Assembly (NCBI GenBank): GCA_947506155.1 | Contig: CANNNV010000007.1 | Span: 1 to 39,611, forward strand | Reading direction: 5' to 3' | From: Methylococcaceae bacterium | GTDB taxonomy: Bacteria > Pseudomonadota > Gammaproteobacteria > Methylococcales > Methylomonadaceae | Length of the DNA stretch: 39,611 nt | Part shown: positions 11,098-39,611 of the stretch, in pieces | Numbering within the stretch: the first letter of the stretch is position 1 | How the letters are laid out: every line of letters starts with the position of its first letter | Program-made: the position numbers and the translations under genes | Notes under the pieces: model-generated | The model's input: only the letters and a program-made list of their open reading frames with translations | Databases searched by the model: none | Told to the model about the DNA's origin: nothing

Positions 11098-11517
11098 CTA
11101 TTCTCTTCTGCGATAATCTTGATTCATTTCATTTCCCAGAAAAGAACCGGCTGCCGCACCAATTCCGGTAGTAACAGGGTTTCCATTACCCATCTCATAA
11201 CCCAAAACCCCACCTACAACGCCTCCAGCTAAGCCCTGGTGGGAACGTGGATCTCTTGAATATTCAGGCTGTTGGTAATAATTAACCTGGGGCTGAGGAT
11301 AATAATTAATTTGCGGGGCAGGGTAATAGTAAACCCGTGGCTGTTGCTGTGGATAATAGTGATCGTGATGACGATGACGATGACGATGTCTTTCGCCTTC
11401 ATTATAGCGTCCCCAACCATCATTATAGCGTCCCCAGTCATCGTCATGAGCGTAAGCTGCGGGTGCTACCATAATTATTACGATAGTTAAGTGAATTAAA
11501 AAAAATATTTTTTTCAT
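11098..11517 (-). CDS. exported His/Tyr-rich protein with glycine-zipper (2TM-type) domain
   Basis: Signal peptide, HRHRHRHHDHYY and YYYPAPQINYYPQPQVNYY tracts, C-terminal GLAGGVVGGVLGYEMG…GIGAAAGSFLGNEM. Confidence 0.75.
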   Translation of the reverse strand: MKKIFFLIHLTIVIIMVAPAAYAHDDDWGRYNDGWGRYNEGERHRHRHRHHDHYYPQQQPRVYYYPAPQINYYPQPQVNYYQQPEYSRDPRSHQGLAGGVVGGVLGYEMGNGNPVTTGIGAAAGSFLGNEMNQDYRRRE

Positions 11518-14721: not shown

Positions 14722-15573
14722 ATGGGAACGATGTGTAATAACATGATAAATATTGGTAAAGTAAATAAGTTGACTGTCGTTAAACAGCAGGGTCCGGAGG
14801 TCTACCTCGATGACGGAACGTCAGGGAAAGTACGACTGGCCGATAGACGGCTGCCAACGCATATCCAGCTCGGCGATAGTCTGGATGTCTTCGTTTATGT
14901 CGATGCGGAAGGCCATTTGGCGGCTACCAGCAAAAAGCCGCTGGCCGAAGTAGGGGATATAGCGTGGATGAAAGTGGTGTCGCTCAACTATGTGGGCGCA
15001 TTTTTGGAGTGGGGACTGCCCAAAGATTTACTGGTGCCTTTTGGTGAACAATACCATGAGATGGAAGTAGGGCGGTCTTATCTGGTCAAGGTGTTTCTTG
15101 ATGATCAGAATCGCATAGCGGCAACCACCAAGATTGATAAAATGCTCAGCGATGAAGCGGATGATTTTGAAGTTGGTCAAAAAGTATCGCTGATTATTGC
15201 CGATGCCTCTGATTTGGGGATTAAAGCGATCATCAACAACAGCCACTGGGGTATGTTGTATCAAAACGAGTTGTTCAGTCCGGTCAGAAAAGGCCAAAAA
15301 CTGGATGGTTATATCAAGCAGATTCGTGAAGATCATAAAATAGATCTCAGTTTGCATCAGCCTGGCTACGGCAAAGTGCTATCGTTGACCGATACCATTA
15401 TCGCCAAGCTGAAAGCCAATGACGGTGTATTGATGCTGGGCGATAAAAGCCCACCGGAAGCGATTTATGCCACTTTTGGAGTCAGTAAAAAAGTATTTAA
15501 ACAGGCTATAGGCGCACTGTACAAACAACAATTAATCACGATTGAAAAAGCGGAAATCAGGCTGATTAATTGA
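14722..15573 (+). CDS. CvfB/YitL-like S1-domain RNA-binding protein
   Basis: Repeated S1-like OB segments (NKLTVVKQQGPEVYLDDG…; VGAFLEWGLPKDLLVPFGEQ) and C-terminal winged-helix-like SPPEAIYATFGVSKKVFKQAIGALYK; start could be the internal Met at 14743. Confidence 0.85.
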   Translation: MGTMCNNMINIGKVNKLTVVKQQGPEVYLDDGTSGKVRLADRRLPTHIQLGDSLDVFVYVDAEGHLAATSKKPLAEVGDIAWMKVVSLNYVGAFLEWGLPKDLLVPFGEQYHEMEVGRSYLVKVFLDDQNRIAATTKIDKMLSDEADDFEVGQKVSLIIADASDLGIKAIINNSHWGMLYQNELFSPVRKGQKLDGYIKQIREDHKIDLSLHQPGYGKVLSLTDTIIAKLKANDGVLMLGDKSPPEAIYATFGVSKKVFKQAIGALYKQQLITIEKAEIRLIN

Positions 15574-16023
15574 TAGTCGGTTACGTTAATTTTAAATTAT
15601 GAGATTAGGTTGATTTTAATCCTGCGTGAACGGTTAGAAAAATAGAGAGTCCTTCGTTTTTAAAAAAATATTATCGCTGCTCTAAAGTTCCTTATGTTAT
15701 ATGCCGTAAGAGTTACCGAGCATCCGTGACAAATTTTGCATAAGCAATTTGTAAAAACCATAATATTATTATTGACTTAAGGGGGATAATTTCATGATAT
15801 TTAATGATGAAAATCACTTTTAATTTAAAGTTAGTAAAAAACAATTAGGAGTTGTGTGATTTGGATCAACGCGCTAGTTCTTTCGTCGATCTAAAAAAAC
15901 CGAATCTTTCCCGCACAGCGAATAAAAGTAGATATGCCAGTTTCACGCATTTCTACGATAAGCATAGGGGTTGTTAACTCTTTTAAACATACTGAAGTCT
16001 CAACAAAATTAAGGAATTTAATC

Positions 16024-16728
16024 ATGACTAGCTTTAAAAACTCATTGTTTGCCTCCTCACTGCTGATTATTAGCTTAATAGCGGATGTGGAAGCAGCAGG
16101 ACCCTCGATAAAAGTTGCTATCAGCTTTCCGACTGGCAGTGCTGGATTGAGCAATCCAAAGACATTGCCTAGCTCTACTAAAATATCACCTTGCATAAAC
16201 AGCACACAAAACGATGCGGCAATATTTACGGTAACCTATAACGCAACAAATCTAAAATCGACTCCGACAGCTCCACTTAGTCCTTTAGATCTTTATGTGT
16301 TTTTTTATAATCCCGAATTCATTAGTGGGACAGATAGCTTTTATTCGATTAGCAAGGCGGGGATGGGAGTAGGTATTAAAGTAACGCCTTACGCAGATGC
16401 AACTGCTATTCAAGCCGCTTATACGGCTAGTCCTTCTACTTTAGATCCTTATCTAGCTGGGGCGGTTAATTTTAATACCACTGTAGCTACTGAGATTTTA
16501 TTTGGTTCGGCTATTCGAATTGATCCAACAGTAGTAGGAAGCTTATTAAATACAGGTACATGGCAGTTAATCGGTATTTTGGCCGATCCCACTACTTTTC
16601 ATTTTCAAAATCCCTCTACATGGGTAGCTTGGGATGTTGCTGTACTGATGTTTGGTATGCCGTGGCAAGGAATAGATGGTTCTACAGCTACCCCCGCCTT
16701 CACCGGCAACTTAGAAACCTGCTTATAA
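16024..16728 (+). CDS. secreted protein of unknown function, paralog A
   Basis: MTSFKNSLFASSLLIISLIADVEAA signal peptide; start chosen at 16024 (not 15934) because this ATG and its leader are conserved in the second copy. Confidence 0.75.
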   Translation: MTSFKNSLFASSLLIISLIADVEAAGPSIKVAISFPTGSAGLSNPKTLPSSTKISPCINSTQNDAAIFTVTYNATNLKSTPTAPLSPLDLYVFFYNPEFISGTDSFYSISKAGMGVGIKVTPYADATAIQAAYTASPSTLDPYLAGAVNFNTTVATEILFGSAIRIDPTVVGSLLNTGTWQLIGILADPTTFHFQNPSTWVAWDVAVLMFGMPWQGIDGSTATPAFTGNLETCL

Positions 16729-16732
16729 GCTA

Positions 16733-16766
16733 ACTGCTCCCGAGGAACACATTCCTCGGGAGCAGT
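16733..16766 (+). terminator. Rho-independent-type terminator hairpin
   Basis: ACTGCTCCCGAGGAacacatTCCTCGGGAGCAGT followed by TTC. Confidence 0.8.
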
Positions 16767-16860
16767 TTTCACTTGATTGATTTTTTTGAGTTTATAAGCA
16801 TACGGGCAAGTTAACTCTTTTAAACATACTGAAGTCTCAGCAAAATTAAGGAATTTAATC

Positions 16861-17532
16861 ATGACTAGCTTTAAAAACTCATTGTTCGCCTCCTCACTGC
16901 TGATTATTAGCTTAATAGCCGATGTGGAAGCTGCGACAACAGCCGGAGCCCCGATAAAAGTTGCTATCAGCTTTCCGCCCGGCAGTGCTGGATTGGGCGT
17001 TGCAAAAACATTGCCTAGCTCTACTAAATTCTCACCTTGTGTAGATCGCACAAAAGTAGATAATGCAACATTTTCGATAACCTATGACGCAACAAATGCA
17101 AAGTCGGATACGGCTACGCCTTTCAATGTTTATGTATTTTTTTATAATTCCGAGGGAGTTAATGTCGCTGCGGATAAATTTTATTCGATTAGTAATGCGG
17201 GGATGGGAAGAGGTATTTCCGCAACGCCGTATGCAAATGCAGATGCTATTCAAAGCGATGTAGTAGCTACAACTTTCGTTCCTTATTTAGATCGAAGCGA
17301 TAATATTAATATTGGTTCAGTTACCGAAACTCTATTTGGTGTGGCTCTTCGACTTGACTCATTAGTAGTAGGCGCTAGCTTAAACACCGGTACATGGCAG
17401 TTAATCGGTATTTTGGCCGACCCCGATACGGTTGACTTTACAAAGCCCTCTACATGGGCAGCTTGGGATGTTGCTGTACTGACGTCTGGTATGCCGTGGC
17501 AAGGTACAGCAGCCTTAGCAACCTGTCAATAA
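16861..17532 (+). CDS. secreted protein of unknown function, paralog B
   Basis: Identical signal peptide to paralog A; shared IKVAISFP.GSAGL, TLPSSTK.SPC, FYSIS.AGMG, NTGTWQLIGILADP, STW.AWDVAVL..GMPWQG. Confidence 0.8.
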   Translation: MTSFKNSLFASSLLIISLIADVEAATTAGAPIKVAISFPPGSAGLGVAKTLPSSTKFSPCVDRTKVDNATFSITYDATNAKSDTATPFNVYVFFYNSEGVNVAADKFYSISNAGMGRGISATPYANADAIQSDVVATTFVPYLDRSDNINIGSVTETLFGVALRLDSLVVGASLNTGTWQLIGILADPDTVDFTKPSTWAAWDVAVLTSGMPWQGTAALATCQ

Positions 17533-17536
17533 GCTA

Positions 17537-17570
17537 ACTGCTCCCGAGGAACACATTCCTCGGGAGCAGT
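17537..17570 (+). terminator. Rho-independent-type terminator hairpin, identical to 16733-16766
   Basis: ACTGCTCCCGAGGAacacatTCCTCGGGAGCAGT followed by TTC. Confidence 0.8.
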
Positions 17571-17640
17571 TTTCACTTGATTGATTTTTTTGAGTTTATA
17601 AATGTTTTTTCGATAGCCTAGCCACGAAATCAAAAACAGC

Positions 17641-18807
17641 ATGGCTAAATTAACAACTCATTATGATAATTTAAATGTGTCGCGCAATGCGCCGGCCAGT
17701 GTTATTAAGGCTGCCTATAAAGCGCTTAGTCAATATTATCATCCTGATAAATATATCGGTGAGCATGAAGAAGCACTGCGGATTATGAAAGCGATTAATA
17801 GCGCTTATGCAGTTTTATCGGATGCTACTAAAAAGGCTATGCATGACCAATGGATAGACACGCAGGAAAGAGAGCACGCAGCTTATGAAACGCAACGGAT
17901 AATAACCATTATTAGCAAAGCTTATGCTGATCCACCAGCCATTGTTCAAAAAAATATTCCCGAGCATTTTAGCTTTAGTCATACGTTTTGGAAAATTATC
18001 CACTCGATGGTTAATACGCTTCGTTGCTTAAGAACTAAGCCACAACGTTCATCTGCCATCAACAACAAACGCGTTATCAAAATCCGGGTCGTTAAAAAAA
18101 TACTGGGCTTAATGGCTTTGATTGGCATGATATGGCTAGCGGTTACTTTTTACCTACCGAAGTCAAAAACAACAGTGACGACGGTTAATCAAAATGTTGT
18201 GAGCGTATTAAAAAAAGCTAAATACTGGGTCGATCAGGGTCAAGTTATCAAAGCGTTGCCTTTGTATTTGCAGTTGGCAATGCAGGGTAATGCGGATGCG
18301 CAGTTTTATACAGGCTTGCTGTACATCAATGGGCACGGTATTGCCAAGGATGAACACCAGGCTGTTAATTGGTTGGGCAAGGCGGCCAAGCAGGGGCATA
18401 AAGAAGCCCAATCAAAATTAGGTTTTATGTACGCAACTGGGAAAGGCGTGGTGAAAAATGATAGCCTGGCTGTTTACTGGTGCTACAAAGCCGCTGAACA
18501 CGGTGATGTTTTTGCGCAATATAATCTAGGCTTGATTTACGAAAAAGGCCAGGGTGTCGCGCAAGATAACAGCCTCGCTTTTTCTTGGTACAGCAAGGCT
18601 GCTGCACAAGGCGATGCCCAAGCTCAATATAATTTAGGTGTTATGTACGAAAAAGGTGTGGGCGTGGCAAAAGATAGCAAGCAGGCAGCTACTTTTTACC
18701 GAGAGGCTGCCAAACAAGGTCTGGCAGCGGCGGTTACTGCTTTAAAAAAATCGAGAGTAGAGAAGCTAAAAAGTGATGATGTGCCCGATAGTGAAGTTAT
18801 TCAATAG
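17641..18807 (+). CDS. J-domain protein with TM helix and Sel1-like repeats
   Basis: N-terminal THYDNLNVSRNAPASVIKAAYKALSQYYHPDKY (HPD motif); hydrophobic ILGLMALIGMIWLAVTFYL; C-terminal repeats such as AQYNLGLIYEKGQGVAQDNSLAFSWYSKAAAQG. Confidence 0.9.
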   Translation: MAKLTTHYDNLNVSRNAPASVIKAAYKALSQYYHPDKYIGEHEEALRIMKAINSAYAVLSDATKKAMHDQWIDTQEREHAAYETQRIITIISKAYADPPAIVQKNIPEHFSFSHTFWKIIHSMVNTLRCLRTKPQRSSAINNKRVIKIRVVKKILGLMALIGMIWLAVTFYLPKSKTTVTTVNQNVVSVLKKAKYWVDQGQVIKALPLYLQLAMQGNADAQFYTGLLYINGHGIAKDEHQAVNWLGKAAKQGHKEAQSKLGFMYATGKGVVKNDSLAVYWCYKAAEHGDVFAQYNLGLIYEKGQGVAQDNSLAFSWYSKAAAQGDAQAQYNLGVMYEKGVGVAKDSKQAATFYREAAKQGLAAAVTALKKSRVEKLKSDDVPDSEVIQ

Positions 18808-38784: not shown

Positions 38785-39611
38785 TTATACGGCAATATTG
38801 ATTAAGCCATTGCCACTTGTAGTACGCAGAGAGTCAACTGAAACTGAAGCCTGGACGGATTCATTATCAACGATACCTTGGTTAGAGCGAGGCGGTTGCC
38901 GTGGGTCGGGATTTTGATTATGTGAACTAACGTCAGAATGTTCTAGTTGTATGCCTGCTTCTGCGAATAGATTGTCCAGCATGGGTAGAGCATTTTGTAA
39001 AGCGTCACGAACTTCTGCTTGTGCTGAGATGAATTGCACAGTGGCCTGTTGATTGTTGATATGCACTGTTACTTGCACCGGTCCCAAATTAGGCGGATTT
39101 AAAGTGAGACTGGCGCTTTGCAGTTTATTTTGGCTCATCCAGACTATCCGTTGACTGATGGCTTGGTTCCAGTTTGGATTGTGTACTGAGGGGCTGATGT
39201 TATATGTGCTTACTGTCGGTGCCGTGACGCTCGATTCTGTTTTGGTTGCGGGTGATGCTTGTATATTCAATATATTAGCAAGTTCATCGGGACGATCAGC
39301 TAGTACAGGGATTTTTGTTTCCATCAGGCTTGTAGTCGTTAAACTGGATGCTGAGTTTGGTGTTACTTGTTCTATTTCCTGGATATCAAGGCTTGCTGTT
39401 TCTGGAGCAATTTTCAATTCCTGCGTGACTCCAGATTTGACAGTCTTTATTGGACTCAGTTGCGCTGAAACCGCAGGCGCTGAAACCGCAGGCGCTGAAA
39501 CCGCAGGCGCTGAAACCGCAGGCGCTGAAACCGCAGGCGCTGAAACCGCAGGCGCTGAAACCGCAGGCGCTGAAACCGAAGGCGCTGAAACCGCAGGCGC
39601 TGAAACCGCAG
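38785..39611 (-). CDS. fliK: flagellar hook-length control protein FliK, N-terminus beyond window
   Basis: C-terminal Flg_hook-like [58 protein letters not shown]; frame stays open through the APAVS repeats to the window edge. Confidence 0.85.
39462..39611. repeat. 15-bp tandem repeat, 10 complete copies visible, truncated by window
   Basis: GCGCTGAAACCGCAG x10 (39462-39611), one copy with GAAG (unit 39567-39581); encodes (APAVS)n on the minus strand. Confidence 0.95.

Follow-up and report, generated by a model that had tools for sequence, protein, structure and literature searches.

Two adjacent genes for secreted proteins, A and B, lie head to tail in the window, the whole 39,611-nt stretch of DNA that was analysed, corresponding to contig C7 of a draft assembly (2.86 Mb in 226 contigs) from the genus to which Candidatus Methylobacter oryzae KRF1 also belongs. 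The genes, their flanks and the two neighbours that border them are as follows.

14722..15573, + strand: upstream neighbour, presumably encoding a CvfB-like S1-type RNA-binding protein; left border of a variable slot
15958..16793, + strand: duplicated unit 1, starting at the ATAA that is common to the junction and the end of unit 2; defined from repeat families D1-D5
15973..16023, + strand: leader of copy A, 51 nt, aligned with that of copy B
16024..16728, + strand: gene A, secreted protein of 234 residues; signal peptide at about residues 1-24; Cys57 and Cys233
16726..16797, + strand: 3' flank of copy A, with a perfect, terminator-like 16-bp hairpin at 16732-16767
16794..17597, + strand: duplicated unit 2, defined from repeat families and junction sequences
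16810..16860, + strand: leader of copy B, aligned with that of copy A
16861..17532, + strand: gene B, secreted protein of 223 residues
17530..17601, + strand: 3' flank of copy B, 72 nt; hairpin at 17536-17571
17641..18807, + strand: downstream neighbour, which we take to encode a protein with a DnaJ domain and SEL1-like repeats; right border of the slot

The two units form a clean tandem duplication. The sequence-only reading of this locus, which described a duplication with conserved ends and a diverged middle, is upheld by the two consecutive open reading frames, the repeat borders and the alignments of flanks and proteins. Comparison of the junction sequences places ATAA at every unit border, the trace expected of duplication through a short match, and the copies may well have arisen in this way in this lineage. 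A third copy was not found in the draft genome, and a scan of the window against Rfam returned a tRNA and nothing else. The tandem could in principle have been created during metagenome assembly by the fusion of two strain alleles, since the genome is a draft and the identical flanks exceed many assembly k-mers. The sequence at 16794-16809, where the hairpin flank of one unit meets the leader of the next, is nevertheless unlike either outer border, which means that a hairpin-to-leader junction must exist in at least one real genome; moreover, a second, older tandem pair is known from a single-contig genome (see below). We regard an artefact as very unlikely.

The slot between the two neighbours (15574-17640; loci L033-L054) varies across Methylobacter, being empty, filled by one or two copies of the gene, or occupied by other genes with no DnaJ-SEL1 gene found downstream. 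Two copies are present in the window and one in Ca. Methylobacter oryzae KRF1, while most other Methylobacter with a readable slot have no copy, only a short spacer with the DnaJ-SEL1 gene directly next to it; in several relatives no DnaJ-SEL1 gene was found downstream of the CvfB-like gene. Judged by CvfB identity, the window and M. oryzae do not come out as nearest relatives, and repeated loss and transfer into the same slot are therefore both possible. The pS between the window gene and that of M. oryzae is 0.56, lower than the values of 0.64-0.71 for the neighbouring genes, which gives a hint, and only a hint, of horizontal transfer between the two Methylobacter lineages. No shared operon partner is evident, the neighbours differing among the loci outside the Methylobacter slot. 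Elsewhere in the window, a gene for a small secreted protein with a glycine-rich C-terminal part lies at 11098-11517, and at a similar position M. oryzae carries a tandem pair of such genes (L007:802-1664), possibly a further duplication close to this locus. At the contig end, positions 39462-39611 hold ten copies of a 15-nt tandem repeat (98% matches), translated as an AVSAP-type repeat within an apparent flagellar hook-length control protein.

The proteins belong to no family that we could find in the databases, in keeping with the earlier failure to recognise one: no score exceeded the curated cut-offs of Pfam and NCBIfam, there was no significant match among PDB sequences, and PHROGs and PADLOC gave nothing significant. 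Profile searches, in which A and B match their relatives over most of their length, showed the family to be present in 3 Methylobacter genomes out of 23, in a handful from other members of this bacterial family, in one more gammaproteobacterial genome and in one uncultured Chromatiaceae genome; the rest of the class and phylum, sampled by several hundred genomes, yielded almost no relatives. None was found in plasmids or, in one scan, in viral contigs, and with PHROGs and PADLOC also blank a phage or plasmid origin is unsupported. Nine sequences share twelve invariant residues (Pro36, Pro56, Cys57, Asp64, Asn96, Asp167, Gly178, Trp180, Pro197, Trp200, Trp203 and Asp204), and their common signature comprises a Pro-Cys pair near the start, an Asn after a DLYxFF strand, GxW and PxxWxxWD. 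The C-terminal cysteine is present in eight of the nine; the ninth stops early. A relative that adjoins an flgE-like gene (L012/L019, genome G224) carries an early stop inside the conserved C-terminal motif and is possibly a broken copy. The second tandem pair comes from the genome of a different genus within this bacterial family (G139:C1:182249-184041). Its members are 50% identical and much older than A and B, with synonymous sites near saturation.

Structure prediction, proposed earlier as a check, gave a beta-strand model of moderate quality and no significant fold match. AlphaFold2 with five sequences produced a weak model of B (pLDDT 54); the shortest relative, modelled as its mature part, gave a chiefly beta-stranded structure with a pLDDT of 70 and a pTM of 0.71. 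When both models were compared with the PDB, the best E values were 0.03 and 0.07, neither of them significant, and the weak matches were mostly Ig-like sandwiches, so that membership of the Ig-like adhesin or binding domains did not emerge from the fold search. With the strands assigned from the moderate-confidence model of this homologue, differences between A and B are rarer within predicted strands (16 of 65 positions) than outside them (59 of 129; p = 0.005), and none of the 19 indel columns lies within a strand. We predict, with moderate confidence, that the product is an exported beta-sandwich with two conserved cysteines. It is probably disulfide-bonded, and the role that suits it best, as an inference, is binding or adhesion after secretion, through a domain with variable, tolerant loops.

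Over their whole length A and B are 66% identical. As had been described, the mature regions have diverged while keeping the islands singled out earlier and both cysteines (Cys57 and Cys233), and the signal peptide is identical at the protein level over 24 residues. Its DNA, however, carries four synonymous differences in 17.7 synonymous sites. By the Nei-Gojobori method dS is 0.32 overall and 0.27 in the signal peptide, where there is no amino-acid change; in the mature part dS is 0.32 and dN 0.28. Since the dS of the signal peptide resembles that found elsewhere, constraint on the amino-acid sequence suffices to explain its identity. Recent conversion of this segment can be dismissed, and the suggestion that the signal peptide was among the homogenised parts fails with it. 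Compared with a dS of 0.32 between A and B, that between A and the M. oryzae gene is 1.03, so the duplication took place after the split from M. oryzae.

Codon models, custom-written and approximate, were fitted to four sequences. For the mature part, a two-ratio model assigned an omega of 0.785 to the A and B branches after duplication and 0.208 to the remainder (p = 5.3e-6). The ratios of the two copies are equal (p = 0.87), and the changes are split nearly evenly between them (22 and 27). Omega on these branches does not differ from 1 (p = 0.27), and a branch-site test for omega above 1 was not significant (p = 0.11); the pair does not, on these tests, join the duplicated genes with omega significantly above 1. 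In the signal peptide omega is about 0. Following dN/dS along the two copies, and setting the flanks against synonymous sites, shows signal peptide, mature part and non-coding flanks each evolving differently rather than uniformly. Of the selection on the mature region that had been proposed, the unusual rate (0.79 against 0.21) stands and an omega exceeding 1 does not. After duplication the mature region has undergone relaxed or diversifying evolution, and because omega does not exceed 1, simple relaxation explains the coding pattern with no diversifying role. The plainest form of this explanation is that partly redundant copies drift free of any selection for diversity, their flanks being conserved as functional expression signals. 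The codon tests agree with such drift, yet both frames are intact, the islands, cysteines and signal peptide have been kept, and the copies have changed equally. Taken with the evidence from the flanks given below, we consider it a real possibility, though one that falls short of likely.

Silent differences in codons for identical amino acids are spread evenly across the coding region (p = 0.43 and 0.72). There is accordingly no sign of conversion tracts within it, and conversion patches inside the genes are unsupported. Conserved ends around a variable core are what a dedicated system of antigenic variation, working by gene conversion or with cassettes, would display, but the genome holds two copies only and no silent cassettes, conversion tracts are lacking, and the silent sites of the signal peptide show no homogenisation. 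We consider such a system highly improbable; neither silent donors nor mosaic tracts were found, and no sign emerged of a dedicated system for the recombination-driven diversification envisaged earlier.

The non-coding flanks behave quite differently. The near-identity of the leaders reported earlier is confirmed, with one difference in 51 nt, and the 3' flanks are identical over all 72 nt, giving a total of 1 in 123. At the synonymous rate about 13 differences would be expected in the leader and 19 in the 3' flank (P about 4e-6 and 4e-10, respectively). Divergence drops sharply at the stop codon, and the first 15 nt of the unit, just outside the leader at its 5' end, are diverged. The hairpin has a folding energy of -30 kcal/mol (z = -7.5). 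Its identity in the two copies holds as claimed; its designation as a terminator needs qualifying, since it was not picked up by a simple intrinsic-terminator scan despite its terminator-like form. It occurs at just two sites in the whole genome, which rules out a dispersed repeat element, and the exact stem pattern was found in none of 22 other Methylobacter genomes.

The leader of M. oryzae is partly similar, with pieces kept (AGGA..TTAATCATGACTA), which favours drift between conserved expression signals; against this, the 3' flank of M. oryzae is unrelated and has no hairpin, and 38 of the identical 3' flank bases fall outside the hairpin core. Synonymous sites have diverged significantly more than the flanks, and M. 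oryzae does not share the 3' flank, so that either recent conversion or a lineage-specific constraint must be invoked. Both recent conversion or recombination and a constraint gained in this lineage fit the flank identity: that the boundary falls at the stop codon speaks rather for constraint, and that the 3' bases beyond the stem are identical speaks rather for recombination. The proposal of homogenised flanks and gene conversion therefore survives for the non-coding parts, where constraint serves as well, and not for the signal peptide or the coding region.

The same contrast, of almost unchanged flanks with a coding dS of about 0.3, would also arise if old alleles from different strains had been joined recently by recombination in shared flanks, the coding part having been kept diverse and the flanks appearing young through free recombination in the population. 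The even silent divergence of the coding part and its abrupt end at the stop codon suit this explanation. The diverged outermost 15 nt of the unit do not, and A and B are equally distant from the M. oryzae gene, as ordinary duplication also gives. We think a recent joining of alleles rather unlikely.

Overall, we favour, as the probable explanation, tandem duplication of an orphan exported gene whose copies have evolved near-neutrally in the mature part while their flanks were kept. A gene for an exported beta-sandwich protein would have occupied the variable slot between the CvfB-like and DnaJ-SEL1 genes and been duplicated there. Amino-acid replacements would then have built up in A and B at similar rates close to neutral (omega about 0.8), most of the change falling in indels or outside the predicted strands. 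The codon analysis, with strands taken from the model, shows that purifying selection held the strands, the structural islands and the Sec signal peptide. Leader and hairpin flank may have been kept near-identical by sporadic short exchanges, by conversion or recombination, whether between the copies or with other strains; alternatively, both copies may require the same lineage-specific expression signals. That the proteins act outside the inner membrane as binding or adhesion domains, with loops contacting a changing partner and the copies splitting or broadening specificity, is possible but doubtful. It would be a bolder and improbable step to see here a methanotroph locus for surface-exposed binding proteins, where recombination homogenises the flanks while the divergent coding alleles between them are maintained in their diversity, a bacterial parallel, on a small scale, to diversifying families of secreted proteins.

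The locus offers a pair that is clean and can be dated, and whose export signal, structural core, loops and non-coding flanks differ from one another in evolutionary rate. It also marks out, in methanotrophs, a rare secreted family, so far uncharacterised, that has undergone tandem duplication at least twice. Should strain data show that coding diversity is maintained, one would have to suspect that methane-oxidising bacteria take part in some surface interaction as yet unknown.

Among the closest counterparts is the orthologue in KRF1 (NZ_RYFG02000121.1, L004/L007), which sits in the same slot with about 58-61% protein identity and shares the signal peptide, both cysteines and the islands of A and B; unlike the window pair, it is single-copy, with a different 3' flank that lacks this hairpin. 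The G139 pair likewise consists of two adjacent copies of the same family by profile, but it is older, with dissimilar signal peptides and other neighbours. Ig-like beta-sandwich domains of bacterial adhesins and polysaccharide-binding modules resemble the model in overall beta-sandwich character, whereas they have no significant structural or sequence match to the A/B family. In the toxin families of snake venoms and cone snails, duplication is followed by fast evolution of the mature region between a conserved signal peptide and conserved untranslated regions; these are eukaryotic multigene families with omega above 1, and the likeness to A and B is one of analogy only, implying neither homology nor a toxin role. 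We conclude that the pair is a well-resolved and fairly ordinary case of duplicate-gene divergence in a new and rare secreted family.
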